A stretch of 64,000 nt of DNA from Prostheceraeus crozeri (Eukaryota > Platyhelminthes > Polycladida > Euryleptidae), in the NCBI GenBank assembly GCA_907163375.1, contig CAJQUW010005346.1, forward strand, positions 124,001 to 188,000, given 5' to 3'. The notes beneath the pieces are model-generated. The model did not search any database and had not been told where the DNA came from. It was given only the letters and a program-made list of their open reading frames with translations. Position numbers and translations under genes: made by a program. This document shows positions 12,063 to 32,727 of the stretch, one piece after another (within the stretch, counting starts at the first letter, position 1; every line of letters begins with the position of its first letter).

Positions 12063-12068
12063 CATGTG
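12063..12068. repeat. left target-site duplication CATGTG
   Basis: CATGTG immediately precedes the AGTAGC terminus, and the same six bases follow GCTACT at 37419-37424. Six base pairs is the usual Maverick/Polinton duplication length. Confidence 0.93.
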
Positions 12069-12289
12069 AGTAGCAAATTCTAGCCCCTTTCCGCCGCATT
12101 TGACCTTCAGTACATGTGTACTTTTATCGGAGCACACGCCCACGCATCAGAGCACGGAGCACACGCCCACACATCGGCGCACTTGGGGTATGAGCACGGA
12201 GCACCAATCGGAGCACGCGGCGCCGAGCACGTGTGATGAGTCACCGCACGGTATATAAGGAAGGCGCTGCCAGAGAAAATCATTCTCAT
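12069..12289 (+). repeat. left terminal inverted repeat of element 1
   Basis: 221 bp, matching the reverse complement of 37198-37418 with one T/A difference near position 43. It contains the complete inward-facing promoter, so both outermost genes are driven by the same sequence. Confidence 0.95.
12129..12258 (+). promoter_or_regulatory. TIR promoter: GGAGCAC array, E-box, AP-1 site, TATA
   Basis: About seven GAGCAC words lie upstream of CACGTG (12228-12233), TGAGTCA (12237-12243, an AP-1/bZIP consensus) and TATATAA (12252-12258). The polB ATG is at 12297, about 38 nt past the TATA box. The E-box is degenerate in element 2 but the AP-1 site and TATA box are conserved there. The layout fits a host Pol II early promoter responsive to bZIP factors; factor binding is inference. 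Confidence 0.75.
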
Positions 12290-12296
12290 TCTAACC

Positions 12297-15200
12297 ATGC
12301 AGTACACGTGTGAATTCTGCCGTCAGTCCTTCTCTCGCTTTCAAGACTGTATTGCTCATGGAGCAGCGGAGACGGGTCGCAACTATTGTTGGACATGCTG
12401 TAAATGGTATGGAGACGAACACGATTGCCGCGCGTTTAATTATGGTGATGACAATGACTTGCTGTGTTTGGATTGCGACGGACGTTTCGACGTGGAGGCG
12501 TACCATAAGCATGCGTGTGTAGGACGGTGTCGCTACTGTGATGCAGTGGTGAATGCTGAAGCGGAAGGATGGGATGAACATTTGTATCCCTACCTGTTTG
12601 AGTTCATGCAAGAGGGCGGTGCAGCTGTGGAAGAAGAACGGATCATGGACGGTCGTGGATATAATTATAGATTTACCCCTCATCAAGCCACGAATGAATG
12701 GAGGACATATTTAAATTCAATGTATGCGGACTTGTATCGTGTCATTGTGCAACAACACCCCCACGAGGATGTGAAAGTGTTTGTGAGTATGAAACTCAGG
12801 TTTGTCAAGATTGATATGTCGACGGGTGAAGAGGAAGTGAGAGACATCACCCCACCCTCATACATTCACGAAGGCGTCCAAGCACGTAACTTTGATACAT
12901 GGTTCCGTGACATGGTGTCAAAGATTGAAGAATTTATTGAAGACTATCGAGAAGACGGATCAGGATTTGCGGTGAAGGAAGTGTTGGAGTTACTAGTTCA
13001 AACAAGTTCCTTCCCTAATTTTCGCATGGGCGCACCCATTCCTATCCACCGAGATATCAAGCTCTGCAAAGGCATATGTGTGTTTGAGCGCAACACCTAT
13101 ACATCACATTGTTTTCAAGACAGTGTCCTCTATGCACTTGCCTACCAAGACAATCGCATTCCTCGACGTGCTAATTCCCACACCAAGAAAACCTATGACA
13201 GATATCTGAATGAGCTTCCTACAGTGCGCATGTTGAATTTGAACCAATATTATCATCTAGACTTTTCCATGATGACGTCAGAGGGGTTGATGAATACACG
13301 GGATATTCAGGAGTTCGAAAAGAAGAACAATGTCATTGTTCGTATCCACGTACATGACAGTAAAGGATTTGTGGGCCAATTATACCCGGTCCGTCAAGCT
13401 GTGAAGGAGAACACACGCATCGTTCATCTGGTGATGGTGACGCGGTACGATATGGAGGATCAGTCTGGACATTTTCTTCCCGTGACGGATTTTCAGAAAT
13501 GTGCTCGCATGTGGTATCGGAACATGAGCCAAACGCAAGTGAAACGTTTTGAAACATGCGAGTTATGTAGTTTACGATTCAATTTCTACGAGAAGGGGAT
13601 AAAGTATGGAAAGACAAAGGACATGGCGCACAAAGAACGTCTGGAACATCAAGCCAAATGCGATGGAGGATTTTTTCAGATGGAAACGACCCCGAAAGAT
13701 ACGAAACCGCACGAATTTATCGACCACGCGAAAACCACTCAACCCCTCGCTGTGATGTATGCGGACATTGAGAGCATGATTGATTCCGTGTCCAAGAAGC
13801 ATACGGCAGCGTATGTGGGATCCTATGTGGTGTGGCATCCGGCGCCGGACGTGAAAGAATCGGTGGTGGTCCATAAGGGGACGAGTGCATTCCTGCCTTT
13901 ATTACACACATCAGACAGGTGATCTTGTCTATGTTTGATCACATGGAAGCGACGAAGCGTAACATGACGCTGACGGAGGATGATATGCGGGACTATGAAC
14001 AGACAGCTCAATGTAACATGTGCGGATGTGATGTAAAACCCCAGAAGCAAGGTGAAAAGAATGGGCCTACGACAAAGGTGCGAGACCACGATCATATCAC
14101 GGGCAAATATTTGCAAACCCTGTGCAATGCATGTAACCTGCGACGACGTCAATCCCGGAACACATTAAACATCTTGTTTCACAATTGGAAGGGATATGAC
14201 AGTCACCAGGTGATTGTGCAAGGGTTTACCAAGCTGGATCACAAGTATAAGATCGAGCCCATTTATGTGTCAGGAGACAAGACGTTGGGAGTGACCATCT
14301 TTCTTCCCATGCCATCCAATACCCTATATAAAATCCGATTCATCGATTCATGTCAGTTTTTGAAAGACTCTCTAAGCAATTTGTCAACGACCATCAGTGA
14401 CTTTCCTCACTCAAATCACATATTGAGCAACGTCTATCCGAATTGCGATCACACATCTATTCGGAAAGGATATTTTCCCTATACATATTTTGACTGCTGG
14501 GATCGTATCCACGAGACTCAATTGCCTCCGAAGGAAGCATTTTACAATGATTTGAGTGAGAAGGAGTTGGAAGAGGATGAGTATGCTGTGGCACAAAAGG
14601 CGTGCACAGAGACGGGGTGCAGCACGTTTGAAGATTATATCCACTATTATTTGACAGTGGATGTAGCCTTGCTCGCAGACATCTTCGAACAATTTGGAAG
14701 TGAAATACGCGACGTGTCTGCATTGGACCCCATCCACTATTTCGGCACACCTGGCTTGACCTATTCAATTTTCTTTAAAAAGACACAGGTCAAGTTGGAG
14801 AAATTGCATGACGTGGATATGTACCGCGTGTTTGAAGCAGGGATTCGTGGAGGGATGACATTTGTGAATCAGCACCGCGCTCAAGCAGAAGAAGGTACTC
14901 ACCTGTTTTATGTCGATGCGAACAATTTATACGGTGCGGCCATGATGGGACCTTTGCCGAAGGATTGTTTTGCCTGGGTACGACCGGAGGTCTTGGTGGA
15001 CATCAACGACGAATGGGTGAGACGATACAATGTCAATGGCACCACAGGTCATGTACTGTGCGTCGATTTGGAGTATCCCCCACACGTCCAAGATGCCACG
15101 GAAGATTTACCATTGGCTCTTTACCGCGGGACGGCGAAATGGGAGGACATGTCTCCCTATATGCATGAACTATGGCAAGAGTTGAACGGGAACCGACCCT

Positions 15201-16240
15201 TTCATTCAGCCAACAAGTTAATGATGACGCACGAAAATCGCAAAGAGTATGTGGTACATATCGCCGCTCTCAAGTATTATGTGGAGAAGGGCTTACATAT
15301 CACCAAGGTTCATTACGGGATCTCCTTCAATCAAGAACCGTATATTCGCCCCCATGTTCAATACCATACGCAAGAACGCGCCAAGGCAACCACGAAAATG
15401 CGCCGCAATCTCCACAAGTTGATGGTGAACGCACTCTACGGCAAGACGATGGAGAATATATGGGAAATATGGGAAATATGGGAAGCACTATTTTGTACGA
15501 TCACCGAATTTATTTAGCAAATGGACACGTCATCCCTATTGCCAATCCTTCTTCAACATCAGCGACAAAGCCGTGGTGGTGAATGTGCGCAAGACCAAGG
15601 TAGACTTGAACAAGCCCATTAATATCGGGCAATGCATCCTGGACAACAGCAAGATTATTATGTATAAGCTGTTTGACCAGTGGAAAGCCAACAAGACGTG
15701 CACCTAAGTTCAGCTCATTGGTCGGGACACAGACTCCTTCTTCCTCAAAGTCCGCAGCCGGTATACACGCGAAGAAGTACTGCGTTCGTTTGAAAACATC
15801 CCAAATTTTATTGATACGGAGGCGAAAGGTGTTCTCGATACCTCAAATTATCCCGTGAGTCATCCAGAGAGACGTACCGAGAATGCGAATCGTTTGGGAT
15901 GTTTCAAGGACGAGTGTGTGGGGGATAGGGTGAAGGAGTTTGTATGTTTGAGTGCCAAGATGTACTCTTACATTGTCCTCAAAGGCAATGAGGAAGAAAT
16001 CCACGACTGTCACATGAAGGGAGTGTGTCAAGCAAAGAAGCGACAAGTGAAACATCAGAATTATGTGGAAGCATTTGAAAAACATTCAATTACCTCAGTG
16101 TCACAAACCCTCCTCCAATCCCAACACCACGTGATGAGAACAGTGACGCAAGTGAAGAAGGCCTTAAGTATCTGGGAGGACAAGCGGTGTTGGTATTTAC
16201 CCAATCAGAGTCTTCCATACGGTAACCATCGCCTATATGA
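12297..16240 (+). pseudogene. protein-primed-type DNA polymerase B, broken
   Basis: Order of parts: an N-terminal cysteine/histidine zinc-finger module (residues ~1-100, with HACVGRCRYCD), a conserved Cys/His module (HCFQDSVLYALAY ... SGHFLPV), exonuclease Exo I (YADIES), an endonuclease VII-like zinc motif (CNMCG ... VRDHDHITGKY ... CNAC), Exo II (NWKGYDSH), Exo III (YYLTVDVALLAD), polymerase motif A (YVDANNLYG), motif B (KLMVNALYGK) and motif C (GRDTDSFF near 15726). It would copy the linear element. Lesions: a frameshift near 13919, a frameshift at the triplicated ATATGGGAA near 15460-15480, an in-frame TAA at 15705-15707, and a probable one-base shift before 16240, where the usual polB end (DKRCWYLPNQSLPYGNHR) meets a TGA overlapping the next ATG. 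The exact natural stop is inferred. Confidence 0.92.
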
Positions 16241-16812
16241 AGAAGGGTATCTACACCCCGCTCTCAAAAATGTCAAGGATCTGCAACCGCATGGTGGAGC
16301 TCACAGCATCCTCCGCAATACCACTGCAGACATTGTTACCGCAACTCCCTCTGGCCACATACCGAGCATCACGCCCTTGTCGAGTCTATTGGAAATGGAA
16401 CTCTTCGGTTGCTGTACAGATTTTTCCACGGGGGTGTATCCAAATTTTGGGCAACCACTCTCTGGAAACATACGATCGTATTTGTAAAGAGATGCGCCAA
16501 TTACTCGCCCCCTACGGATTGGACGTGAGCGACCCAATCACAAAATCCTGCACAGTTCAATGTCAATGGAACTATACAAAAGACCGCATGCAAACCATTC
16601 AACAGTTGCCATCGACATCGGTGATTTCCAACGAGCGCGGCCTGTTTCCCGGAACGTTAATACGCAAAGGTAATTTGCATTGTTCCTTCTTTTCCAACGG
16701 AAATGTGATTGTGACGGGTGTCTTATCGATTGCAGAAGCGGAATCGTTGGTGGAAGACATTCTCAAATCCCTATTCGAAGGAGATTCCCTCAATGAATCG
16801 GACAGCAACTAG
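16237..16812 (+). CDS. TATA-binding-protein-like (TBP-fold) protein
   Basis: 191 residues, intact. The C-terminal half reads GLFPGTLIRKG, then CSFFSNGNVIVTG, then a helix (SIAEAESLVEDILKSL). This is the order and spacing of the second TBP repeat (FPG, phenylalanine-bearing strand, SGK-V-TGAK-like turn, long helix). The N-terminal half shows the matching first repeat: CRVYWKWNSSVAVQIFPRG, CIQILG and the helix LETYDRICKEMRQLL. The two-fold pseudo-symmetry argues against coincidence. TBP binds and bends TATA DNA and nucleates Pol II initiation; viral TBP-fold proteins are known in herpesviruses and giant DNA viruses. The ATG at 16237 overlaps the inferred polB stop as ATGA. Alternatively this could be a C-terminal domain of polB joined by readthrough, or a fast-evolving protein of another fold. 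The call rests on pattern reading without a profile search. Confidence 0.62.
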   Translation: MKKGIYTPLSKMSRICNRMVELTASSAIPLQTLLPQLPLATYRASRPCRVYWKWNSSVAVQIFPRGCIQILGNHSLETYDRICKEMRQLLAPYGLDVSDPITKSCTVQCQWNYTKDRMQTIQQLPSTSVISNERGLFPGTLIRKGNLHCSFFSNGNVIVTGVLSIAEAESLVEDILKSLFEGDSLNESDSN

Positions 16813-17296
16813 TATCCCAACGTCGTGGGTTGTCGCAAGAGACCTGGGATATTCATTCAAAGCTATAGAAACTGTAACACATCTCAATGAAACGATCACC
16901 GCTGGTGAATTAGTGGATCGACTCATGGATCTCGATGAGCATGCTATGAATCACCATTTGGAGCGTAGGTGGATAGAGGATGACTCTCTGCTACACTGCA
17001 ATACAATGACATTGGCGCGATCTGGAGTGAAAAAAGTGAAAAAAGTGACTTTTGCAATGGATGTGTCAGATAACTCTTCCCATAAAAGTGACTTTAGAAA
17101 GAAATTAGAAGAAGAGACATTTCAATTATTATGTGAACGGAACTGTGTTACATGTTTTAAACAGGAACGGTCCCTTCTCTTTTTACCATGTTCTCATAAT
17201 GTTATGTGTTCTACATGTTATGTACCCTTTGAAACGTTATCTTGTCCCCTTTGTGATCAAGACATTGCTTCAACAGTCACTGTCTATCGTGCATGA
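16793..17296 (+). CDS. UBA-RING protein, IAP-like E3 ligase without BIR
   Basis: From ATG 16793, 167 residues. Residues ~12-60 (ARDLGYSFKAIETVTHL ... ELVDRLMDLDEHAM) resemble the UBA segment found before the RING of inhibitor-of-apoptosis proteins. The C-terminus is a C3HC4 RING of IAP type: CVTCF, LPCSHNVMCSTC, CPLCDQDI, with the usual short tail after the last cysteine pair. No BIR domain is present. RING proteins of this type act as ubiquitin ligases, and viruses use them to block apoptosis or degrade host factors; the target here is unknown. The ATG lies inside the last codons of the TBP-like gene (20-bp overlap). A longer frame from 16718 exists, but its N-terminus lies in the overlapped gene and is less likely. 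Confidence 0.8.
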   Translation: MNRTATSIPTSWVVARDLGYSFKAIETVTHLNETITAGELVDRLMDLDEHAMNHHLERRWIEDDSLLHCNTMTLARSGVKKVKKVTFAMDVSDNSSHKSDFRKKLEEETFQLLCERNCVTCFKQERSLLFLPCSHNVMCSTCYVPFETLSCPLCDQDIASTVTVYRA

Positions 17297-17387
17297 TGTA
17301 TAGTGTATAGTGTGCTATCACGAGTGACTGAACCTTGTACAAAACCTTGTGGTATTATCCTCTGTAAAAAGTTCAAAGGTTCCATTG

Positions 17388-17393
17388 AAATAA
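17388..17393 (+). terminator. polyadenylation signal AATAAA
   Basis: AATAAA about 90 nt after the UBA-RING stop, in the gap between the rightward and leftward gene blocks. A reverse-strand AATAAA at 17422-17427 lies in the last codons of the converging protease gene. Confidence 0.6.
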
Positions 17394-17414
17394 AAATACA
17401 ATCATTGACATGAT

Positions 17415-18131
17415 TCATTTCTTTATTGACTTCAAAACATGGGATAATGTAGAATACAAATAGGAATAGACAATTTTATCATTGAAGGACAAGTAGGTTT
17501 GAATGAGTTCTTGATCTTTCTCGTGAGCATCCAACGTTCGAAAGAAGGTCAGTGCTTTATCCATAGACCTGTTAAAAGGGCGATGGTTTAAAAAGTAAGT
17601 ACAGTAAGCACCACAATAGGCTTTAGGACCTTGTATACGCAGAGGGCGACGATAAAAGGATAAGGTGTTGTCGATAACCACTCGGTCACATGTGGATAGT
17701 GAGATGGAGTGAGTCCATAAGAGTCAAAGAATTCGCACACGCGTTGATCCGCATTTTGATAAAAGGCCAACCAATGCTTGCCAGGTTGATGAGAGCGATC
17801 ACTATTGACAATAAGTGTCTTTGATTCCGGGGAATGAGCAGGAAGTAGATCAGCAGGAAACACACCTTGGAAGGGAACGTAAGAAGATTGGAGGAGGCGA
17901 TGAGCAAACGTTTGACAACTACACTGAATAGCACAGAGAAAATCATCTTCGCACATGCAGGCATTGAGTAAATGTTTCTCTTGTAATTGATTCATACCCT
18001 GCATGATTCCTTCGATTTCCGTGTTGCTTAACCATTCTCCCATTCAGCCAACGCTGAGCTTTAATGAGACGATGTTGATAAAGAGATGTCCAAGCGATAG
18101 GAGCAACGTGATACTCGGGTTCTTTCACCAT
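17415..18131 (-). pseudogene. adenain-like cysteine protease, frameshifted
   Basis: Three overlapping frames together make one gene read leftward from ATG 18131. Recognisable parts are GKHWLAFYQ (catalytic His), CEFFDSYG (Asp region), then in the last frame QGPKAYCGAYCTYFL (oxyanion Gln and catalytic Cys). This is the H-D-Q-C order of the adenovirus protease/ULP1 clan found in Polintons, where the enzyme matures capsid proteins. Frameshifts lie near 18040 and near 17665, so this copy is inactive. A late-type motif sits 28 nt before the ATG. The gene converges on the UBA-RING gene. Confidence 0.85.
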
Positions 18132-18159
18132 GTCTTATGATGATGTCAATGCGCGCCAA

Positions 18160-18167
18160 CACTTAAA
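18160..18167 (-). promoter_or_regulatory. late-type motif before the protease
   Basis: Reads TTTAAGTG on the minus strand, 28 nt before the protease ATG and overlapping the stop codon of the capsid gene. Confidence 0.5.
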
Positions 18168-19530
18168 TAGCGGGTGGGATATACGCACTGGAGATGACAG
18201 GATTCTCCGATGTGACGGAGAATTGTTCGTCATGAATGACAAACATTAATAAATCCATATTTTGCGTGGTCGTATTCTCAAATTGCAATTCCAGTCCATA
18301 TTGACGTGTATTGGTGGGTTGAACACTATCGATTTGTTTATCCAAGGTACAGTCAAAGGCGATAAAGTAACAGTATTTGGTAAAACTCTCCAAATCAATA
18401 CCACATGATTCATTCGTGTTATAAACTTGAATCGCACGATTGAATTGGCTGTAGGCAATCACGTCATCTTTGCAATTGATGGTGCCTCCTGTCATGATGG
18501 CTCCATTGGTGGTCATGGTGACTTGAGAGAGTCCATGCCTTTCAAAATAGAGTTTACGACTTCCTGGATCAAACCAAGAGTTACTGGGAACAACCGCGAA
18601 AAAGATGAGTTTAGGACTCAATAGAGCGGCCACATTGGAAAACGTCTTCTTTTGTATTCCACGTTCAATCGTTTGTCGTTGGACGGTCATGCCATTGTAG
18701 CGATAATAAATGGCTTCTGTCTTGCGTCGATTCGCAGTTTTCAATTGCAGTTCTGCATTCGGTGTGAGCATAGGCATATACAATTGGAAAGAGGTGATTT
18801 TGAACCTGTACTTTGTAGAGGTCGTCCCTGCAGCATGTGCCATATCATAAATGGCATATTCCGGTTTATTCAAGGTGAAAATGAGATCCAGTTGCATGCC
18901 TGGGGGCAGAGCAATCACTTGTTGGAACAAATTACATTTCAGGGGAAAGTCAAAGGTACGTTTAAATTTGTAGTCTACCCATTGTTTGAGAATGGCTTGA
19001 TTGAGTGCATTCTCTTTATCTGTAAACTCTACCGCCTTAGACTTTACCGTCTTCGTCCCTGCATCAAACTCCGTGTCATACATCACTTGAGGAACTGTAA
19101 ATCCTTGTGTGACCATGTGTGTATTCTTCACATCATTGGTATATTGTAAAAGATTGCTAAGGTAAGCTCTCAAATAATACAAGTCATTGCCTCCTTCAAT
19201 GGTGCGTTCATTCAAGCGGATAGTAATGTCGGAAAAGAGGGAGTGGGCCGTATTGTTGATAATAATTGCCTTGTCTGACGACTCACATGGCACGTCTGCT
19301 CCTTTAGCCGCATCATGTTTCATGAGTTGTACTTCCACGCGAAAATAGGCATTGCATACATCCATCCAATGAATGGCTAGTCGAGGGACCGTGAATTGAA
19401 TGGTACCGGGATTTTCCAATCCATTCACTGGTGTCAGAACGCTCGTATGCTGAGAAGTACTCGAGACATCGACTTTATCACTTTGGAATACATCGTAACG
19501 CGCATCCAATAAGGCAGGTGTTTCCGCCAT
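18163..19530 (-). CDS. major capsid protein (double jelly-roll type)
   Basis: 455 residues, intact. The signature region IINNTAHSLFSDITIRLNE followed by DLYYLRAYLSNLLQY is typical of Polinton/adintovirus hexon-like capsid proteins, as is the N-terminal VDVSSTSQHTS and IQFTVPR stretch. The protein should form the trimeric capsomers of an icosahedral shell. It lies between the protease and the core/penton genes, the usual morphogenesis block. The start is supported by an AACTAAGC motif 27 nt upstream. No break was seen, in contrast to its neighbours. Confidence 0.9.
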   Translation of the reverse strand: MAETPALLDARYDVFQSDKVDVSSTSQHTSVLTPVNGLENPGTIQFTVPRLAIHWMDVCNAYFRVEVQLMKHDAAKGADVPCESSDKAIIINNTAHSLFSDITIRLNERTIEGGNDLYYLRAYLSNLLQYTNDVKNTHMVTQGFTVPQVMYDTEFDAGTKTVKSKAVEFTDKENALNQAILKQWVDYKFKRTFDFPLKCNLFQQVIALPPGMQLDLIFTLNKPEYAIYDMAHAAGTTSTKYRFKITSFQLYMPMLTPNAELQLKTANRRKTEAIYYRYNGMTVQRQTIERGIQKKTFSNVAALLSPKLIFFAVVPSNSWFDPGSRKLYFERHGLSQVTMTTNGAIMTGGTINCKDDVIAYSQFNRAIQVYNTNESCGIDLESFTKYCYFIAFDCTLDKQIDSVQPTNTRQYGLELQFENTTTQNMDLLMFVIHDEQFSVTSENPVISSAYIPPAI

Positions 19531-19557
19531 GCTTGATGGAACGGATGTCCTAAGATT

Positions 19558-19565
19558 GCTTAGTT
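19558..19565 (-). promoter_or_regulatory. late-type motif before the major capsid gene
   Basis: AACTAAGC on the minus strand, 27 nt before the capsid ATG and just after the end of the upstream core-protein frame. Confidence 0.55.
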
Positions 19566-19566
19566 C

Positions 19567-20214
19567 TTAAAAGAGCATGCGTTGTTTAGCACCTCCGCGA
19601 TAACGCCCCATCAAACTTCCTTTCCCCCATTTCGTATGATGGGCAATGTCCACATGACCACGACGACGTTTAGGAGCAGGTGCTTCCACCCTATCCCCTT
19701 CTTCATCCGTGAAGACGCGTTTCCGACTCACTTTATTTTGAATAGCTTCTACAACACGTTCGGGAGCAGTCTGTCAAGTGCGTTTGGCGAGTGCTTTCAC
19801 ACCCTTTTTGAGACGATCAACTCCTTGTGCGGTAGAGCTGACAGCATCCGTGACAGCTTGTTTCGCAGAATTGAGAAACTCTGTCGTACGTAACGATTTT
19901 CCCAACGTTTTCTGTACCGTATGTACAAGTCCTTTTTGCGATGTTTTTTGCGATGCTTTTCGCGATGCTTTTCGAGAGGGTTTTCGAGAGGGTTGTCGAG
20001 ATGGGTTTCGAGATGTTTTTCTGGGAACTCTCTTTTTGAGTGATTTGGGCAGACGGATGGATGGTGTCTTGACACCAGTGACACGTGGTCTAATCATGCG
20101 TGTTTTCTGTCCAATCACTTTATTCCATCCACCTCGTTGCATAAATGAACCTCTTCCAAACAATCGTCCAGAGGAATGTTTTCGGTTACGGATTAAAAAG
20201 AGATTTGTCATCAT
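19567..20214 (-). pseudogene. basic core/minor capsid protein with internal stop
   Basis: The first 146 residues are strongly basic, with a run of PSRKPSRKASRKASQK repeats and then a helical AKQAVTDAVSSTAQGVDRL segment. An in-frame TGA at 19774-19776 ends that frame, but the same frame stays open for 68 more codons to 19567. It reads through KRVFTDEEGDRVEAP, a PKRRRG nuclear-signal-like block and a RYRGGAKQRMLF tail. This looks like one gene with a nonsense mutation. Composition and position resemble adenovirus-type DNA-condensing or pVI-like internal proteins; the exact homology is uncertain. Confidence 0.65.
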
Positions 20215-20240
20215 GTCTTGATGTGCTTGGGAAAAGACAA

Positions 20241-20250
20241 TTACTTAATT
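20241..20250 (-). promoter_or_regulatory. late-type motif before the core gene
   Basis: AATTAAGTAA on the minus strand, 26 nt before ATG 20214. The terminal TAA is also the stop codon of the upstream penton-like gene. Confidence 0.5.
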
Positions 20251-21125
20251 GCGCGACGTCGAAGATGCATTTTTACATAGGACCGTCCGTCTGTCATAGC
20301 GATGGGATGACCTTCATCCGACATGAGTTTGATTTCAATATCTTGCACATGTTGACTTTTCACAGGGAGATAGGTGACATTCTGGAATTCATGATGAATA
20401 CTATCTCCATAATCTTTCCCCGTGTAGGGAATCACACACATACAGTTTGTTTTCATACCCCCTACATAATGATAGCCTACAATATTACAATACAGGAGAA
20501 TATTGTAGGTAAAGGCATTCAAATTCAAAGGGGCAGTCGCTTGCTGTGAGGAGGTGAGTAAGTCTGTTTTAAACCCAAGAATATCTTTGAGAAAAGGATG
20601 GAGTTTCATACTGTAGTGTGGGGGTACGACCACTGAGACAACATGGACATGAGGCGCCAATGTAGTGATAGAAAAGTGCAAATTGTGTCCATGCTGTCGA
20701 TTCTGATTCAAACACTGCATCAACGTCTTCTCCGAATAAATACCGCGTGGAATGTTGAAGCGCGTAAACATGCCTCCCTGTTTTCCTTGTTTGTCTTGTT
20801 TGCCTTGCTCTCCCTGTTTGCCTTGTTCTCCCTGTTTGCCTTGCTCTCCTCGCGGTGAATCCGTTTTGATGGACATGATAGAGGACGTATAGACGGTCGG
20901 AATCGTCTCAGGATGATCCTTCAACGTCCCCACACTAAAGCTGACATCCACGGGTATTGTCTGCAGGGTATTAATAAAATTGACGACGGAGATACCGGCT
21001 TCCCATTGATCCCCATGGACCATGGGCATGGAAGGAACCAAGCGATTTTTGAAATGATTGGCTCTATTTTCAGGAAACAAATTGGGCTGAGCATTACTTA
21101 ACAAGTGAATCGTTTCCTCATGCAT
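20241..21125 (-). CDS. penton-like minor capsid protein with collagen-like insert
   Basis: 294 residues, intact. It starts with ETIHLLSNAQPNLFPENRAN, a leader shared with the large neighbour upstream (VYLLSNTQPHLYDNKANHF). Residues ~91-117 are a collagen-like run of GEQGKQ triplets. The C-terminal part (NILLYCNIVGYHYVGG, then DIEIKLMSDEGHPI and SYVKMHLRRR) matches the second half of the large gene and resembles the penton/minor-capsid jelly roll of Polintons. It probably sits at a vertex, with the collagen-like segment as a possible stalk; that role is inference. Confidence 0.7.
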   Translation of the reverse strand: MHEETIHLLSNAQPNLFPENRANHFKNRLVPSMPMVHGDQWEAGISVVNFINTLQTIPVDVSFSVGTLKDHPETIPTVYTSSIMSIKTDSPRGEQGKQGEQGKQGEQGKQDKQGKQGGMFTRFNIPRGIYSEKTLMQCLNQNRQHGHNLHFSITTLAPHVHVVSVVVPPHYSMKLHPFLKDILGFKTDLLTSSQQATAPLNLNAFTYNILLYCNIVGYHYVGGMKTNCMCVIPYTGKDYGDSIHHEFQNVTYLPVKSQHVQDIEIKLMSDEGHPIAMTDGRSYVKMHLRRRAIK

Positions 21126-21149
21126 GGTTGAGTGTCACTCTGCCCCCAT

Positions 21150-24100
21150 TTACCTAGTCTCCTTACGGCGGAGATGGAGTTTGAAATAGGATCGTCCTTC
21201 ATTAATCGGAATAAATTCACCATCATCACCACGCAACTGAATTTCAATCTCATCAATAGCTGATGTAAAAATGGGGTAATAATCAATATTGGACACTTCA
21301 TACGACACCATTTCCCCCAAACGTTGTTTCTCTTCAATGGGGTGAATTTTCAAGATTTGTTCACGTTGTCCTCCCACAATACTTTCCGCCACAATATTAC
21401 AATAGACGATAATGTTGAAGGAATTGGGGGTCATGCTGAGGGGAGAGAGTGTTGTCATCTGTGTATTGGGTCCATAATAGGATTGGGGTAGACCTATACG
21501 ATAACTCAACGCTTCTCCAAAATCAATAAAGGCATGTTCCGCGGTTTTCACCGTCAAATAATGATCTTTCGAGAGAGAGAGGGATACATCAGTCCACGCC
21601 TGTAAATTCACCTGAAGTTTGGAAAAGAGTCCTTCCAAGGTATAACTCCCTTTAGGAATGAGGATGCGATGAAACGAGGTAGAAATGTCCAGGGTGGGGT
21701 TGATGTAACCTTGCCGAATCATGTGGTCATAGATGTGCAACGGTTTCATGGTCTTGCTATAGAGATGAAGAAAAGGGCGAGGTGTGGGATTTGTATTCAC
21801 CATCACCGATTGAATATCTTGTTTTCCCACATCCACTCCCAACACCATACCATCCATTAGATAAAACATGTTTTCTTGCCAGCGTTCCATCATGGTCGTC
21901 ATGAGCCTTTGCATATCCTCACTGAACCATCCAATAAAGGAAGTCAATCTATCTTTGCAGACTTTCAGGTTGGATCCTTCTTGATACGCGACAGCGGGTG
22001 AATACAATGTCTTATCAGAGAGTCTATCTCCAAACAAGTAGGATTGTAAACACGTATTGGCCAACAGCTCTTTCGATTCGTAAGCATAAGGGAAATAGGA
22101 TTTCTGAAACAAGCGATCCAATTCCTTCCCTTTCCATGGGAAGAGGGTGTCGAGGGTGTGGTTCCATCCTTTGGCATAATCAAAGGTATATTCCGGTAAA
22201 CCATAGATGTGTAATGTCATCCCATGGGTGACATGTTTTGGACGTTGTTGATACCGACGGTAACTTGCAGAACAATGTTCCGGCGTTTCCGAGTGTATAC
22301 AGGTTTGTTCATGATAGGTGAACATACCATATTAATGACTATGATTCAACATGTGTTGCCAGAGTTGTGGGGGATTGATTTTCAACCCATACCCTTCCGC
22401 GATTTTAAAGTGAAGCACGTAAAAGACACCCACTGTGGTATACGTCACCCACACTATATCAGGCAGGGGGATGGCTTGATTGAAAGCGTGCACAAATGAT
22501 TGGAGGGTATAGTATTTCGTGGGTAAATTGAATCGTAATGGACTAGGAATATGAGATAGGGTATGAAACATCTCAAAAGAGTCACCATGTTTGATGTTGA
22601 GAATATTGGGATGCTTCTTATCCTCGGTCTTTTACTGTTGTGTCGGTTTTCCGTTTCGATGCAAGACATGGGTCCCATTCAATGCATAGGGGACACTCTT
22701 CTTTTCAAAGAGAGCGTCCAATTTCATGGTTTGTTTCTGAAGGATAAAGGAGGGAACATGAATCGTGCTGAGGGGGATTTCCAAGATCCATTCGTCCCAC
22801 ACGTAGGTAGCCACTTGTTCTGCTTTGAAAATCTCATAGGCTTTAGATTGCCGGTCCATCTTGATTTCCATATCGTCCGTGCAATCGATGGTCAGTTCAT
22901 AATGATAGGACATGGATGTGATGGTCCATGTCATGGGGGCGGGGAAGATGGCATTCAAATAGGTTTCCAACGAATAATAAACTGTGGGGACGATAGAACT
23001 CCACGTCTTATCACTCTCTACATTCTTGTAATAAAACGATTCAGGTCTAGACACATAAAATAACAGTTTGTTCTCCTTGGTTAATTGACAAAGATCCGTT
23101 GTCAACACAGTCACTTCTGCATTCACCCTATCTCGTTCACGAACAATCTCGTCAAGATTGTCAGTTCCTGCAGTGGGTTTGAATGCTTTCACCCTCCTTC
23201 TTAACGTTGTCAACCGTTCCTGTTTTACTTCAAATGCATGAAGAATAGTCCCATACAGCTCCATCAAATCCACCAAACTATGATAGGCAAATACATTATA
23301 AGTGTTGCAGATATGATACTGTTCCGTAGGTGTGAAGGGAAGGGCATGTTGTCCCGTTTCGTGCTGCATATCCGCACCACTGGCCAATACATTTTCTTTC
23401 CCATCTTTAGGATGGGAATGAACTAAATGATGAATAATAGGCCGTTTCGTGGCTTGTTCCTTTTGAATCGATTTTCGAAAATTTTTCAATAAGACCGTAT
23501 CAAACAATCGCTTCTTGGCTCCGAATCGTTTAGAGACTAAAACACCTTCCATCTTGTATTGACGTAGGATTCGCATCATGTTGCGGTACTTTGCATTCAG
23601 TGTGTTGATATAGGTAGGCAAGAAACGGGAGGTGACTAAATCAGGAGCATCGGCTATATGGAGGGTAGGATCGATTTTGTGTAACTGTGTATCAATCCTG
23701 TCATACAATTGATCAATACGGTTTCTGAACCATGACACATGTTTTTTCTTGGGATGTGGATACTTCTTTTCACGTTCTTTTGGAGTGAGTGGATTGAGGA
23801 ACTCCACTGGGAAAATAAATTGATTTTTCGTGGTGCGTGTTGGTAAAGCAAACCATTTTTTAGAGACCAAATGTTGCAATCGGAAAAAGGTGTGTTGATA
23901 CATTCTCACGGCTTTCATCAACTGTCCCAGTTTAGGAAGAAGGATGCGAAGATTATGAAACAGGCCTATATGCCCTCTGGGAATAGGAGGTGCCTTTGCA
24001 TTGAGTTTGAGAGAGCTCACAAAGGTATCGGTCCTCATCCACACAGCACGTGTCGTATCATCACTCAGGGGTTGTATATCCTTATAGGTCACTGGGGGAG

Positions 24101-24995
24101 CCATGGTAACAGTGGCTATTTTCTGCAAATCGGAGAGGATTCCATAATCCATCGCAGACAATGTATAATTGGAAGCATGCGTCACATGAAAGGACAAACT
24201 GCTGGACGAATGAAACACTAATTTCCCCACACCAAACCATTCTAATTGTTTGAATAAATTGAGCACTGAGATTTCATTTCCCAACAACCTTTCAATCCCA
24301 TGTTTGGCAAAATGACAGCGGTGTAAGGAAATCACACTGAACCAATAGTCATGGGCGGGATATTTCTTTACGTCACATTCCTTTCGATGAATGGATAGAC
24401 GTGTATGGATCCGAACGACATCCTTCAACGATAAATGATAGACACATTTGTCCAATAAGAGTGAGGCCGCCAAATGAGGGGAAAACACAAGGACGTAATG
24501 AAATGCGGAGAATTCCTTGATTTGAAACAGGGAAAATGGGACAATGTCAATCACATAGACATCTGCTTCCTCTATACCATTGCATCCATAATACAAGTAG
24601 GATGGATGTGTCGTGACAGTCATCATGTTGGAAATGGTACGGCGTGTATATAATTCTAACGCTGTGATCATGGGGACTCTTTTCACTTCCTCATCGGATT
24701 CAAAAATGGTGTGACGACGGACCACATTGGTCCCTTCCATCGTATAATAAGGCAAATAGGTCTTCAAATCTTTCGTATCCACCATTTTCCCCACGGTAAT
24801 ATAACAATCTTTGGGAATCGTATCCACATTATTCACATACCCAAACTCTTTCAAGCCTACTTCCCATGTTTCTCCTTTAGGAATAAAAAGTGGATTTTCC
24901 AGTCGTGTAAAGAAATGATTGGCTTTATTGTCATACAAATGGGGTTGAGTATTGCTCAACAAGTACACATGTTGTTCCTCATGCAGTTCCTGCAT
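21150..24995 (-). pseudogene. giant modular penton/spike-like protein, two in-frame stops
   Basis: One minus-strand frame stays open from 24995 to 21150 except for TAA at 22632-22634 and TAA at 22332-22334. It begins MQELHEEQHVYLLSNTQPHL, like its smaller neighbour. It contains repeated modules: YYSLETYLNAIF, YYTLQSFVHAF and YTLEGLFSKL, plus a duplicated LDALFEKKSVPYAL / LDRLFQKSYFPYAY block. It ends with NIIVYCNIVAESIVGG and EIEIQLRGDDGEF, the penton-like tail. I take ATG 24995 rather than 25022 because a CTAGGTAA motif lies 26 nt before it. It is likely a vertex or spike protein of ~1,280 residues; three separate genes remain possible. Confidence 0.6.
21151..21158 (-). promoter_or_regulatory. 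late-type motif before the collagen-containing gene
   Basis: ACTAGGTA on the minus strand, 25 nt before ATG 21125, including the TAG stop of the preceding frame. Confidence 0.5.
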
Positions 24996-25021
24996 GATTA
25001 CAAAATCAATAGCGGCGTTCA

Positions 25022-25029
25022 TTACCTAG
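25022..25029 (-). promoter_or_regulatory. late-type motif before the giant penton-like gene
   Basis: CTAGGTAA on the minus strand, 26 nt before ATG 24995. Its presence decides the start: the in-frame ATG at 25022 would sit inside the motif. Confidence 0.5.
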
Positions 25030-25047
25030 AGGTTCTAAGTCTGTCAC

Positions 25048-26280
25048 TCATGAGTTCATCGAGGCCGGATAACCTTGCCAGTGCGCAAAATATTCTGTAC
25101 GCCCATTCCGACGTCGGGTCTTGAGCACTTTGTCCACTTGATATACTTCTTCCTCCCGATGAATCACTTGTAATTCCTGAGCATAAAAGGATCCTTTGAT
25201 CTCTTCTCCACCCAAGTCTTTGATCTTGTACATTTTGGTACCATGGGGGTTCTTGAGAATGTTGGAGACAGTGAACTCTTCCGTCGACCAATTCGCTTCA
25301 TACCCCCGTCCAAACGTTCCTTTATCACGTGAAATACGTACCCGTGCTCCCACAGGGATAGACTTCCCCGGGACTGCAACCTTTTTATAGTTTTGTCGGA
25401 GACGTTTCGCATTGTTTCGTTTCACTTCCTCGGTATTGGAGGCATTCACATCCATCGGGGTGAAACCTGTGGATGAATGGGTGCTGTGATTGTATGCATA
25501 CATGACATCTGCGATATAATCCACCCAATTCTTGTGATTGGTGGCTGTAAAGATACGTTCCAATTTATTCTTGACAGTACGGTTCAATCGTTCGACATGG
25601 GCACATTTATAGGGACTGTAGATGGAAAACAATTCAATAGCGTGCTTGTCCAAGACGTCTTTCACCGGTCGGTTATAAAATTCACGGCCTTGATCCGTTT
25701 GTAGTCGTTGCGGGGTGGGAATGGTTGCGAAAATGGCTTCTAAAACCCCCGACACTTCTTTGGCACTCTTGGTCTTGAGAGGGAATGCCCAGGCTTTGCG
25801 TGTAAAGATGTCCATCACCATGAGAATATACTTGTAGCCACGATTATGCTGTGCATACTTTTGATAATCGACAATATCCGCTTGAAATTGAATTTGCGGA
25901 CCGCGTACACGATACGGGTGCAAAGGCTTAATACGATGCAATCGAGATTTGCGAAGGGTGTAGGTCGGTTGACGCATTAACCATTGTTTGACTTTTGTTT
26001 TTGAATAATATGAAGCAGCAGCAAGTGCATTGACGCTTCCGTAGCCAGCGGGATGTTTGGGATTGTAATAAATCTTGTGCAACACCTCCTCCATCGACAC
26101 AATCTGCTTGGTATTGACGTGGGGGTTGAAGATAGGCGGGTTCCCGTTGGAACAACAATTAAAGCTCGCCGTGATGGTGTACTGTGTCTCTGCGCTGTCG
26201 TCTGCGTTGCCTTGGCCGCAACAACGCCCAAAGATACGTGATAAGAATGAGGAGGCAATTGGCGCGGCTGCCGTTGCCAT
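25048..26280 (-). CDS. retroviral-type integrase with truncated chromodomain
   Basis: 410 residues. The helical N-terminus YYNPKHPAGYGSVNALAAAS is typical of Polinton integrases. The rve core has D in FQADIVDY, D in LQTDQGREF and E in HVERLNRT, with 33 residues between the last two. An SH3-like part follows (ARVRISRDKGTFGRGYEANW), then a chromodomain start (YQVDKVLKTRRRNGRTEYF, HWQGYPASMNS). The frame stops at TGA 25048-25050 exactly where chromodomains carry a conserved tryptophan, and stays open afterwards to 25006, so a TGG-to-TGA nonsense change is likely. The family cuts and joins element ends to make 6-bp duplications. The ATG overlaps the end of the ATPase gene. Confidence 0.92.
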   Translation of the reverse strand: MATAAAPIASSFLSRIFGRCCGQGNADDSAETQYTITASFNCCSNGNPPIFNPHVNTKQIVSMEEVLHKIYYNPKHPAGYGSVNALAAASYYSKTKVKQWLMRQPTYTLRKSRLHRIKPLHPYRVRGPQIQFQADIVDYQKYAQHNRGYKYILMVMDIFTRKAWAFPLKTKSAKEVSGVLEAIFATIPTPQRLQTDQGREFYNRPVKDVLDKHAIELFSIYSPYKCAHVERLNRTVKNKLERIFTATNHKNWVDYIADVMYAYNHSTHSSTGFTPMDVNASNTEEVKRNNAKRLRQNYKKVAVPGKSIPVGARVRISRDKGTFGRGYEANWSTEEFTVSNILKNPHGTKMYKIKDLGGEEIKGSFYAQELQVIHREEEVYQVDKVLKTRRRNGRTEYFAHWQGYPASMNS

Positions 26281-27470
26281 TACTTGAATGGTGTGCCATA
26301 GGATCCCAATTCAAAAACTCCTTTTTTACTTAAACGAGTATTGATGGTCGATTTCAATGGGGATCGCTTCGTCTTGGGAGAGGTGACAACCGAAGGTTTG
26401 ACGACTTTCCCTTTCGATCTCTTGAGGACGGGTAGATCTGCAACGTGCGTGAGTGGAGGTTTTGCGGCATGAGTGAGCGGAGGTTTTGTGACGTGCGTGA
26501 GCAGAGGTTTTTCCAATCGCTTCCCATGATCATCGTCCAAATTGAAAAATTGGCGACGAAATTTATCGAACAAATACATCCGAGCGTTCCATGCAGCGAT
26601 ATTATTGGCGGTAGGACGGTGACGCACAATCTCTCGTGCAATACGATCAAGATGGGCTTGTTGAGGAGCCATCATCATGGTTCTCACCCTCTGATCTTCC
26701 GCTTGACGTTGTAACATGGTCGACATCAGTTGGGTACTGTCACCACCACCACCCATTTGCTGTCCGCCACCGGTGTGTTCATTCATGTCAGATTTGGGAA
26801 CCACTACTAATTCACTAAAGTCCATTTTCGTTTTATTGGGTCTTTTGCTTAACTTAAACACAATCATAGGTGGGTTAAATAAGTTTGTGCGAAATCGGTA
26901 CTCAAACGGACAATTCGTAGTGAAATCAATAAAGAGGTAGGCATAATTCCCATACTTTTGAACCAATGTCGTTAACATATCATGCACAACGCTCATATTG
27001 CCTTTGGGGAGCATTTTCCCCATGAATTGAGCTAATTGTTGTTGATTTCTCGGATTATTGAACGCGACCAAATAATGGACATTGCCATTACAAATATTTT
27101 GTTCTTTATCACCATACAAATACTGTGTGATTTGCACTGCGAAAAACCGTTTATGATGAGATCCTCTTAAAAACAATCCCGTCACAGTTTCATTGTTTTG
27201 AGATTCCTGTTGTAAATCATCGAGAATAATTAAATCATTTTCTTGCAATTGATCAAAATCATCTTGGGTAGGGACACCCATTTTCAAGATCACCTCTTGT
27301 AACTCTTTATGAAGTGGACTTTCTATCCCATAATACCACCAGACTTTACGAATGGGCTTTTTAAATAAAGTATGACGGTTCTTGATCATATTCGCCACAA
27401 ACGTGGACTTTCCCGATTTACTACGACCCGAGACAATCATGGATGAGTCATTCTCTAAACGGAAATCCAT
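26280..27470 (-). CDS. DNA packaging ATPase (FtsK/HerA, A32-like)
   Basis: 396 residues, intact. Walker A SGRSKSGKST lies at residues ~14-23 and Walker B LIILDDL at ~80. A sensor-like QITQYLYG follows, then the FNNPRNQQQLAQF segment typical of the Polinton/adintovirus packaging ATPase. The C-terminal ~150 residues are an unusual low-complexity tail with THVTKPPLTH repeats and lysine-rich blocks. It should pump the genome into preformed capsids. A TTAAGTTATG motif lies upstream, here about 50 nt from the ATG. Confidence 0.88.
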   Translation of the reverse strand: MDFRLENDSSMIVSGRSKSGKSTFVANMIKNRHTLFKKPIRKVWWYYGIESPLHKELQEVILKMGVPTQDDFDQLQENDLIILDDLQQESQNNETVTGLFLRGSHHKRFFAVQITQYLYGDKEQNICNGNVHYLVAFNNPRNQQQLAQFMGKMLPKGNMSVVHDMLTTLVQKYGNYAYLFIDFTTNCPFEYRFRTNLFNPPMIVFKLSKRPNKTKMDFSELVVVPKSDMNEHTGGGQQMGGGGDSTQLMSTMLQRQAEDQRVRTMMMAPQQAHLDRIAREIVRHRPTANNIAAWNARMYLFDKFRRQFFNLDDDHGKRLEKPLLTHVTKPPLTHAAKPPLTHVADLPVLKRSKGKVVKPSVVTSPKTKRSPLKSTINTRLSKKGVFELGSYGTPFK

Positions 27471-27520
27471 CTTGTCGAATCATAAAAGTCAGACATATAT
27501 TCCATGCATCATGTATTAAA

Positions 27521-27530
27521 CATAACTTAA
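27521..27530 (-). promoter_or_regulatory. late-type motif before the packaging ATPase
   Basis: TTAAGTTATG on the minus strand. The spacing to the ATG (50 nt) is longer than at other genes. It overlaps the stop of the upstream gene. Confidence 0.45.
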
Positions 27531-28069
27531 AATTGTTTCCAGAACATAGAATCATTTCCAGAATAAAGAAGAGGTGGAATAAAACGTCCACGTGTACATG
27601 TCTTAAAGAGTGAGTTTTCAAGAGCAGTCACCATTTCACTCATCAATGTCCTTTCCATGTCATTGGTAAGAGGATTCATATTGTACCGTGCAAATGCTTC
27701 CTTCAACATGTTGGGAAAGGCGCGACGATGGATTTCGTAGGCACTACGCACAATGAAATAATGTTCAATATAGTTCAACACAGACCACTTCTCATTGACA
27801 CACTGTCCTGCTTTGTACCATGAGGATGACACATACCACTGACTCTCCTGATTATGTTCCACCATATCCTTGAACATTTCGAGGAATCGATTGATCCATT
27901 TCTCGGCTTGTATTTGATCACCGTCAAAGATATGCAGCGCGTGTGACTCTTCCCGGATGCGAATGTACACGTCGAGTGCTTGCGCCTTGGTATAATCCGT
28001 CCGCATCCTCCTCCAATCCTCCTCCTCCGTGGGTTGAGCACTCCACCTTTGAGAAAGCATGCTTGTCAT
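27527..28069 (-). CDS. unknown element protein, 180 aa
   Basis: Intact frame with even composition and many aromatic and charged residues (WYVSSSWYKAGQCVNEKW, YIEHYFIVRSAYEIHRRAF), probably all-helical. No recognised domain. Its ATG overlaps the stop of the upstream gene by four bases (ATGA), so both may come from one transcript. No late-type motif is seen right before it. Confidence 0.65.
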   Translation of the reverse strand: MTSMLSQRWSAQPTEEEDWRRMRTDYTKAQALDVYIRIREESHALHIFDGDQIQAEKWINRFLEMFKDMVEHNQESQWYVSSSWYKAGQCVNEKWSVLNYIEHYFIVRSAYEIHRRAFPNMLKEAFARYNMNPLTNDMERTLMSEMVTALENSLFKTCTRGRFIPPLLYSGNDSMFWKQF

Positions 28070-29049
28070 CTCATCCTCCTTTCTTTCATAAGTACAGTTC
28101 TATCCTCTGATTGGGATAACTGATCGAGATCCTCTATAAAGTGATTGAGTTCCTCCCAATCAATGTCCTTTTTAGGTTGCACCATGTGTATCAGATTAAA
28201 TAAACCACTTGAGGGAATGGATGCCTTCTTTATATCGAGTGTCAGCTTTGTCTTCTTCTTCTTTTCCTCCACCGCTATGCTCTGACCTTCCTCCACCTGT
28301 TTGATACGGACTTGGATTTGATCCACAGTAAAACACAGTTTCAGAGTCTTTGTCTGTGGATTACAGTATATGCCTGTGACGCGGAAGATGGTATTTGCTT
28401 GAAGGAAGGTATTCGCCTTGAGATTGGAAAGAAGATGTCCAAGAGTGGCCAAACAAACCTTCTTGTTCTTTCCATTCTCCTTCATCAGGAAGATGGGTGT
28501 GTCCTGCTTCAGCTTCATAAAGACACTGTCGTAGGCCGATTTCTTGTGTACATAACCGAGACAGGAGGTGAGGTTGTAGGCAGATTCGGGTTGGACTTGT
28601 TTGTAGAGGGATTGTATCGCATCTTCCAACGTCTCCAAATCGCGTGAGACGGCTTGAGAAATGGTGAAGAGGGAGGAGAGTTGATCGGAACCGTACCCAG
28701 CGTCATTGTATGTTTGTGCACGCCATCCATAAAATCCCGTGGCAAACACGAGTTTTGAGATGTCTCGTCGTGATTGCCAATCCATCGCATCCATCATCGC
28801 ATTCTCTTCGCGAATGGGATAATATCCAGTGATACCCCATTTCTTGCCCAATACCAGACGTGTGATGGGCAGAGGCTCCAACTGTGGATGTGCCTTGGTA
28901 AGGTAGTTCTTCTCGGCTTTCCCATTCGTATGGAAATAGGGTTCCGTCGCTTCAACAAAGACTGGCTTCGATGTCGGTGTATCTGACGAATACGTGACTT
29001 TCGCCTTCTTCGCGAGAGTAGCTTCCAACGTGTTCGTACGTTTACCCAT
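28066..29049 (-). CDS. unknown early-type nuclear protein, 327 aa
   Basis: Intact, and repeated nearly unchanged in element 2 (63591 onward). The N-terminus MGKRTNTLEATLAKKAKV looks like a nuclear localisation signal. A KKKKTKLTLDIKK block lies near residue 265. The middle (LPITRLVLGKKWGITGYYP, FATGFYGWRAQTYNDAGYG) is well conserved between copies but unfamiliar. The promoter has TATATAA and the GGAGCACCAATC block of the TIRs, so expression with polB is likely. A replication or DNA-binding accessory role is a guess from context only. Confidence 0.75.
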   Translation of the reverse strand: MGKRTNTLEATLAKKAKVTYSSDTPTSKPVFVEATEPYFHTNGKAEKNYLTKAHPQLEPLPITRLVLGKKWGITGYYPIREENAMMDAMDWQSRRDISKLVFATGFYGWRAQTYNDAGYGSDQLSSLFTISQAVSRDLETLEDAIQSLYKQVQPESAYNLTSCLGYVHKKSAYDSVFMKLKQDTPIFLMKENGKNKKVCLATLGHLLSNLKANTFLQANTIFRVTGIYCNPQTKTLKLCFTVDQIQVRIKQVEEGQSIAVEEKKKKTKLTLDIKKASIPSSGLFNLIHMVQPKKDIDWEELNHFIEDLDQLSQSEDRTVLMKERRMR

Positions 29050-29080
29050 GACTGAATGAAAATGATTGAAATGGCTCAGC

Positions 29081-29157
29081 TTATATAGAGTTGAGCGTGG
29101 GAAAATTTCTTCTCATTGGTTGACGCCCACGCATACAAGTGCTCTGATTGGTGCTCC
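29081..29157 (-). promoter_or_regulatory. internal early-type promoter (TATA plus GGAGCAC block)
   Basis: Reading the minus strand, GGAGCACCAATCAGAGCAC (29157-29139) differs at one of 19 bases from the TIR block at 12198-12216, followed by CTATATAA (29088-29081) about 30 nt before the ATG. The same arrangement stands before the element 2 copy at 63483-63558. Confidence 0.75.
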
Positions 29158-29169
29158 GTCAAATTCACG

Positions 29170-29560
29170 ATGAATCATTCATTTTTGGTGGTGTACGGGG
29201 CTTGTCCCTTTTTGTAGGTCAAATTCACGAGATAACGCTTGATTTCATGAGAATTTGCTGAGTCATTTTACGATAACATTGGTCGATTTGGTGTGGAAAA
29301 GTACCTCAGAATTCTCGATAAATCACCTGATTTTACGAGGATTTGTAGCAGAGTGTGTTCTTCAAAGTCACAGTGAATCGATTGATATCATGGGAAAATA
29401 ACACATCAAATCCGTAGTATTTTTAACGATGTCATGGGAAAATCAAGCTTTAAATCTTCGGTAGATCGTTTGATTTCATAGGAATTTTACTGTGTGAACG
29501 TGTCTTATTCACACTCTTCGATAAATCGTTCGATTTCATGGGAATTTCATTTTGCGGTTT
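29170..29560 (-). repeat. degenerate TTTCCCATGAAATC repeats across a gene end
   Basis: On the minus strand, words close to TTTCCCATGAAATC recur every ~45-100 bp. The first two encode the IPMKSNDL repeats of the 29450-29812 protein. The rest continue past its stop into non-coding sequence up to the early promoter. Some are followed by ATTTATCGA or AATCGATT. The pattern is retained in element 2 (63093-63420). Confidence 0.6.
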
Positions 29561-29812
29561 GGTGGGATTGAGTATAGGTGTTTTGGACATATCATAGTTG
29601 ACGACTTCCACATCGAGTAAGGGTTTTCCACTATCTTTACGTTTTTTGATATCTTTCATCATTTTTCGACCAGATAAGAGGGTAACCAAAATGAATATGA
29701 CGAGTGTAAAGAATTGTGATAGGGTTTCTTTGAATGAACCAATGGGTGAACATTTTAAATCTCCTCCGTTGGCTGTTGAAAGTGTGTTCGCTATGGATTG
29801 AACAGTGTCCAT
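29450..29812 (-). CDS. small membrane protein with IPMKSND repeats
   Basis: 120 residues. One hydrophobic helix (FFTLVIFILVTLLSG, residues ~34-48) is followed by a lysine-rich stretch (KMMKDIKKRKD) and two tail repeats of IPMKSNDL. It is probably a single-pass membrane protein of the virion or infected cell; no named family. A late-type motif lies 28 nt upstream. Almost identical in element 2. Confidence 0.7.
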   Translation of the reverse strand: MDTVQSIANTLSTANGGDLKCSPIGSFKETLSQFFTLVIFILVTLLSGRKMMKDIKKRKDSGKPLLDVEVVNYDMSKTPILNPTKPQNEIPMKSNDLSKSVNKTRSHSKIPMKSNDLPKI

Positions 29813-29840
29813 GATGACGCTGTTGATGACGTGGGTATGG

Positions 29841-29848
29841 TTTACTTA
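29841..29848 (-). promoter_or_regulatory. late-type motif before the small membrane protein
   Basis: ACTAAGTA on the minus strand, 28 nt before ATG 29812, overlapping the TAA of the upstream gene. Confidence 0.55.
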
Positions 29849-30241
29849 GTGTTTGGAACCGATCGATGCATGTAAGGCTTGTTTGAAAGCTGCTGGATTA
29901 TCGTGATATGCCATGGCATAGGCTTGTGCGAAGGGAGTTTGTTTCTTGTTAAATTTCCGTTTTTGACCCAAGTATTTGCGAGTTTGAGGGGGTGGTTTCA
30001 CAAATTTGCGGAGAATTCCTTTGTAAGATTGAATAAACTCGTGCTGTAAAGGTGTTAATTTCCCTGGATTCTCTCGCATTTTGCTCATGAGTGCTTGCAT
30101 ATCCTTGACATATTCCTCAGGCAATTGATCGACATGACGGTTAATTTTCTTTTTCGAACATCCTTTCCCTGAACTTAGGGATTTCAGTACATTGGTAAAG
30201 TCCTGACGTCGACTTGAACATATTTCACACTGACACGTCAT
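29846..30241 (-). CDS. small cysteine-motif protein, 131 aa
   Basis: It starts MTCQCEICSSRRQDF, with a CxCxxC cluster that could bind zinc with a cysteine near residue 28. A helical middle follows (LPEEYVKDMQALMSKMREN), then a basic segment (KYLGQKRKFNKKQ) and an alanine-rich end (FAQAYAMAYHDNPAAF). No family recognised. Nearly unchanged in element 2. Its position among late-motif genes suggests a virion role. Confidence 0.7.
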   Translation of the reverse strand: MTCQCEICSSRRQDFTNVLKSLSSGKGCSKKKINRHVDQLPEEYVKDMQALMSKMRENPGKLTPLQHEFIQSYKGILRKFVKPPPQTRKYLGQKRKFNKKQTPFAQAYAMAYHDNPAAFKQALHASIGSKH

Positions 30242-30266
30242 TCTTGTCTATCATCCTCTATCCCAC

Positions 30267-30276
30267 ATAACTTAGT
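30267..30276 (-). promoter_or_regulatory. late-type motif before the cysteine-motif gene
   Basis: ACTAAGTTAT on the minus strand, 25 nt before ATG 30241, just after the stop codon of the previous gene. Confidence 0.55.
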
Positions 30277-31578: not shown

Positions 31579-31609
31579 GATTGATTTCTGTTGTGTGTTC
31601 CTGTGCATG

Positions 31610-31618
31610 CTTAAATAC
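31610..31618 (-). promoter_or_regulatory. late-type motif before the module B gene
   Basis: TATTTAAGC on the minus strand, 31 nt before ATG 31578. In element 2 the corresponding bases read TATTGAAGC. Confidence 0.35.
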
Positions 31619-31729
31619 ATTCGTTGGCCATTGAAACAAAATACTGAAATGAGCACAGATACGATTCAATGTCTCTTTGATATAAATAAGACTTGCTGCT
31701 GAAATCACACGTTTATGATACAGCTCTTG

Positions 31730-32714: not shown

Positions 32715-32727
32715 TCTCCAATCGATA

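Follow-up and report, generated by a model that had tools for sequence, protein, structure and literature searches.

A Polinton in the genome of the polyclad flatworm Prostheceraeus crozeri almost certainly encodes a homologue of the TATA-binding protein (TBP). The element also carries a second class of promoter-like motif, and together the protein and this motif class suggest that the Polinton may control its late gene expression with a switch of its own. To our knowledge, little is known about the early/late control of transcription in small double jelly-roll viruses, Polintons among them. Within the open-access literature (most subscription papers lie outside it), none of the matches listed announces a Polinton, Maverick or adintovirus TBP in its title or abstract opening, which agrees with an earlier sequence-only reading of this DNA that was aware of no TBP described as a Polinton gene. 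A simple word search of four main texts on gene content (PMC11071308, PMC10120064, PMC8097293, PMC4028283) likewise returned neither 'tata' nor 'tbp'. Elsewhere, passages of one paper report a TBP in a giant virus (PMC12085832), and passages of another place TBPs sporadically in mirusvirus-like elements and not in that paper's Polinton-like viruses (PMC10675990).

The window (the whole stretch of DNA that was analysed, 64,000 nucleotides) contains a complete Polinton of 25,350 bp (12069..37418). It is bounded by terminal inverted repeats of 221 bp (12069..12289, + strand, and 37198..37418, − strand) and by a matching CATGTG target-site duplication (12063..12068 and 37419..37424, both +). The location inside a Polinton that the earlier reading had proposed is thereby supported, as the 6-bp duplication, inverted repeats, integrase and family B DNA polymerase (polB) of Polintons/Mavericks are all present. 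The two repeats differ by 1 mismatch, and this near-identity points to a recent insertion. On the + strand, polB is followed directly by the TBP gene and then by a gene for a RING-finger protein. The polB remains (12297..16250, right boundary approximate; delimited by PF03175, ORF pieces and stops) are of the viral/organellar type (PF03175, 1.8e-23 on 13919-15514). The pieces do not share one reading frame, and stop codons interrupt them in the region from about 15.5 to 15.7 kb, whereas the TBP and RING ORFs are open. This interruption reflects either decay after the recent insertion or derivation from a copy that was already broken. The RING-finger protein (16793..17296, +, 167 aa; PF13920, 2.7e-10) overlaps the TBP ORF by 20 nt. 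A C-terminal RING recalls inhibitor-of-apoptosis proteins; the Pfam scan detected no BIR domain in this one.

The remaining genes that we could name lie on the − strand. A retroviral-type integrase (25048..26280; PF00665, 1.3e-11) ends in a chromodomain-like stretch (PF00385, 7.2e-4, below cut-off), and is adjoined by a probable packaging ATPase (26280..27470) whose P-loop matches are all sub-threshold. The ORF at 18163..19530 encodes a putative major capsid protein; it has no Pfam match at E<=0.001, and its single-sequence structure model is unusable (pLDDT 30.1). Two overlapping ORFs (17588..18131) possibly encode an adenain-type protease, a weak assignment (PF00770, E 0.022, below cut-off). 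Pfam scans of the element's main ORFs, a set without one stop-containing polB piece, a small basic ORF and the majority of short/antisense ORFs, found no TFIIB or polymerase-subunit gene. The element is richer in G+C (43.7%) than the remainder of the window (38.1%). It also contains a 132-bp inverted repeat (arms 33792-33923 and 34049-34180, 98% complementary, 125 bp between), possibly a small nested transposon. Elsewhere in the window, a reverse transcriptase with a weak endonuclease-like part (48642-51068, +; PF00078, 4.4e-31) probably marks a LINE-type element.

The TBP ORF spans 16237-16812 (+), as first read, and is open for 191 codons. Its product of 191 aa exceeds any ORF in 200 mononucleotide shuffles of a 660-nt stretch (longest ORF mean 47 aa, maximum 148). 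Although these coordinates are correct for the ORF, the start of the gene is likely not 16237 but 16270 (giving 16270..16812), because relatives that keep their N-termini begin at the equivalent of residue 12. Against Pfam at E<=10, the protein matches TBP (PF00352) as sole family, with 39.4 bits (curated cut-off, 22.9 bits) and E 5.5e-10. The second half had been called the more telling, and it is: residues 98-191 alone score 2.8e-5, above the cut-off, while residues 1-97 alone score 0.0013, below it. The two half-profiles of the family align weakly with each other (hhalign P 1.3e-4, probability 54%).

Searches against known structures agree with this assignment. With the single sequence, a PDB search (E<=10) returned five archaeal TBPs at E 0.019-0.057 over near-full length; with a 40-member family profile, 35 of the 36 sequences at E<=1 were TBPs or TBP fusions (best, 1.6e-14), and all 40 alignment members match PF00352 at E<=1e-3. 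In structural comparisons, two pseudo-symmetric lobes form a saddle over nearly the whole protein, as in cellular and archaeal TBPs (PF00352; 1ais, 2z8u, 1ytb, 1cdw), to which the window protein is 16-21% identical in the structural alignments. The sequence-only reading had named profile search and structure as the means of checking its TBP proposal; both uphold it, as does the conservation described below. Its claim that both halves of the fold are present holds for the two-lobed saddle, but the first half lacks one of its two intercalating phenylalanines. These family-profile matches and structural alignments rule out another fold with chance motifs. A mere C-terminal extension of polB is also ruled out, since database entries give the relatives as proteins in their own right, 111-225 aa long. 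In a viral structure library the top match was a Heterosigma akashiwo virus TBP (E 2.7e-9), and a UL87-domain protein gave a weak fold match (Foldseek E 1.2e-3). The protein does not belong to the herpesvirus UL87 family by sequence, nor is it already filed there, given that the Pfam scan at E<=10 returns PF00352 only.

Two promoter classes had been proposed for the element, and both are borne out as sequence motifs, though 8 of the 25 starts have neither within 60 nt upstream. These counts refer to 25 start sites (mostly first ATGs) of one element, 21 of them on the minus strand. TATA[AT]A occurs within 60 nt upstream of five starts (random mean 0.80, P 0.0006): those of polB, the right-end gene, p327, p312 and an acidic protein. 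A TATATAAG box lies 45 nt before the polB ATG (12252..12259, +) and, in the mirror repeat, 41 nt before ATG 37194 (37228..37235, −). YTARGT occurs within the same distance of 11 starts (random mean 0.86, maximum 6 in 5,000 draws), and YTARG[TC] lies 30-38 nt upstream of nine (random mean 0.18, maximum 3 in 20,000). Counting 5-mers without a preset motif also put TAAGT at the top (9/25, 4e-8 before correction). The starts with neither motif (6 of the 21 on the minus strand) include those of TBP and RING, and upstream of TBP we saw no separate promoter.

We call the YTARGT genes 'late', a label inferred from gene type. All nine sites are on the minus strand, and in eight genes YTARGT keeps a spacing of 32-37 nt to the ATG. 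CTAAGT stands 33 nt before ATG 35766 (35794..35799), 33 nt before ATG 35455 (35483..35488), 34 nt before ATG 30241 (30270..30275) and 37 nt before ATG 29812 (29844..29849). CTAGGT stands 35 nt before ATG 32678 (32708..32713) and 32 nt before ATG 21125 (21152..21157), and TTAAGT 34 nt before ATG 20214 (20243..20248) and, within TATTTAAGT, 35 nt before ATG 18131 (18161..18166). A variant, CTAAGC, precedes the probable capsid ATG by about 33 nt (19558..19563). At other distances, YTARGT is found 53 nt before the integrase, 60 nt before the probable ATPase and 7 nt before p796. A late-class motif also lies upstream of a very basic 45-aa ORF (31954-32091, −), which is perhaps a small DNA-condensing protein.

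It is conceivable that YTARGT is not a promoter at all. That is, the motif could be a signal at compact gene junctions (RNA processing/splicing) with no connection to the TBP, as would fit five of the nine genes: in three of them the upstream gene ends at the motif's own TAA, and in another two the motif overlaps the upstream stop codon. For the same reason we limited a control to TAR triplets: of the 19 located 30-40 nt upstream of minus-strand starts, 8 extend to YTARGT, as against 10 of 420 elsewhere on the strand (Fisher p 8e-8). This enrichment speaks against a junction signal, as do the narrow spacing to the ATG and the four genes (including the probable capsid protein and p93) in which, by eye, the motif leaves the upstream stop untouched; we therefore consider a junction signal unlikely. 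Among other ATGs, the motif stands at 30-38 nt in 12 of 650 on the minus strand and in none of 610 on the plus strand, and several of the 12 are alternative starts of the same genes (e.g. 24995, 20211).

The protein family shows which parts of the TBP are under constraint. Three successive searches across 5.8 billion proteins yielded 5, then 39, then 219 proteins, and the best 120 of the 219 were used. Residues were counted in 140 family proteins, namely the window protein and 139 relatives among the matches listed; for these relatives, again among the matches listed, the longest reported contig is at most 20,463 bp, approximately the Polinton size range. Both phenylalanines of the second lobe are invariant (140/140 each), and the second phenylalanine of the first lobe is present in 139 of 140 (one gap). 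The first phenylalanine site of the first lobe instead carries R/K (136/140) followed by P (135/140); the exceptions are three gapped proteins, together with one protein that deviates at the first position and two that deviate at the second. The phenylalanine is missing whether one follows MAFFT, which aligns it with the P, or hhalign, which aligns it with the R/K. None of 16 comparators in the printed alignment (four cellular and twelve IMG/VR TBPs) has R/K-P at this site. As three rather than four intercalating phenylalanines are kept, the canonical trait of TATA-box TBPs is absent, and we file the protein in the TBP family and not as a canonical TBP. At two acidic positions of the C lobe, which by yeast TBP numbering we take to be the TFIIB-contact residues, Glu is found in 131/140 and 139/140; the window copy is the single exception at one of them.

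Conserved TFIIB-contact glutamates and an altered first half of the saddle are also what one might expect of a decoy. The protein could be aimed at the host, competing with its TBP or tying up TFIIB so that host transcription falls, while the element's own genes, the late ones too, use host factors. We rate this as quite improbable, in that it explains neither the position-fixed second motif class nor the near-invariance of three intercalating phenylalanines across 140 proteins. Less probable again is a DNA-bending protein, acting perhaps at the terminal repeats, that helps to replicate, package or organise the genome and has no part in transcription. The place of the gene directly after polB and the mostly retained saddle residues would suit such a role, yet a DNA bender would presumably have no need of the TFIIB-contact pair that the family keeps.

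A tree of 57 rows comprised 41 family proteins, left from the 140 by thinning, four cellular TBPs and twelve IMG/VR TBPs, two pairs of the latter being indistinguishable in the retained columns. In it, a branch with 100/100 support separates the window's group, together with a more distant one, from all cellular and IMG/VR TBPs. Because the IMG/VR comparators were retrieved with patterns taken from the C and N lobes of ordinary TBPs, they are biased towards these. Another tree used 75 of 144 rows, after dropping proteins of <150 aa and thinning P0042-P0140 to a third. Finer placement is unsafe because of long branches. Mobile elements do capture host genes, and every TBP is ultimately related to cellular TBP by descent, but a captured host paralogue (TRF type) with no lasting role in the element is very unlikely given this branch and the conservation of the 40 aligned members at 27-51% identity to the window protein (one near-copy, at 98%, apart), which indicates lasting selection.

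We think it probable that the divergent TBP is the Polinton's own promoter-recognition factor, acting in late initiation through host TFIIB and RNA polymerase II. The TBP would be made early, together with polB, from the TATA-containing promoter in the terminal repeat. Its saddle, with three of the four intercalating phenylalanines, would then bind YTARG[TC] at a fixed distance upstream of the structural genes, and its conserved C-terminal stirrup would recruit host TFIIB and polymerase II, thereby switching on the late genes in the manner of the TBP mimics of beta- and gammaherpesviruses. Since the family keeps its TFIIB-contact positions and the scanned ORFs hold neither a TFIIB nor a polymerase-subunit gene, use of the host's TFIIB and polymerase II would be the simplest arrangement. 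The second motif class exists; its link to the TBP, and with it the role of virus-encoded initiation factor that the sequence-only reading had raised, we infer. The full scheme, a self-made early-to-late switch of Polintons of this lineage in which an early TBP with an asymmetric, three-phenylalanine saddle reads YTARGT and takes over host TFIIB and polymerase II, is plausible rather than probable. Counting against our preferred explanation are the decay of the window copy, with its polB broken and one TFIIB-contact Glu lost, and several features of the motif data: they come from a single element, the TBP gene and other starts have neither motif, YTARGT lies at other distances from the integrase, the probable ATPase and p796, and it also coincides with upstream stop codons and precedes some other minus-strand ATGs.

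Known viral systems offer partial parallels. The TBP mimics of beta- and gammaherpesviruses (KSHV ORF24, HCMV UL87 family) are also virus-encoded TBP-like domains. Passages of two papers describe a non-canonical TATTWAA about 30 bp upstream of late start sites such as those of KSHV (PMC12529657, PMC6541308); its likeness to YTARGT is one of logic, not of sequence. In ORF24, according to passages of the former (PMC12529657), an additional C-terminal part binds DNA, all four phenylalanines are required and the TFIIB-contact acids are absent. In contrast, the Polinton TBP is a bare TBP core, its family retaining those acids, and differs from cellular and archaeal TBPs, with which it shares three phenylalanines and, at the level of its family, the TFIIB-contact glutamates, in its R/K-P site and in being encoded by a mobile element. 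Giant viruses and mirusviruses also have TBP genes (a TBP gene cluster in 59% of mirusvirus genomes, in a passage of PMC10132985), but their genomes are far larger. According to passages of PMC7221094, a TBP-like sequence in a virus is nearly always accompanied by a TFIIB-like protein, and divergence at the acidic adapter-contact positions is the rule among viral TBPs. In the Polinton ORFs scanned, Pfam finds no TFIIB, and the family retains these positions.

With such a protein, Polintons would join the virus groups that have a TBP of their own. Paired with a matching second promoter class, it would make early/late control approachable through a single small protein and one short DNA motif. 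Since its family retains the TFIIB-contact residues and the scans detected no viral TFIIB, this TBP could be a naturally occurring minimal system in which a single foreign factor redirects the host polymerase II machinery. If the full early-to-late scheme is true, the R/K-P proteins would form a large class of small-DNA-virus TBPs that has gone unrecognised.
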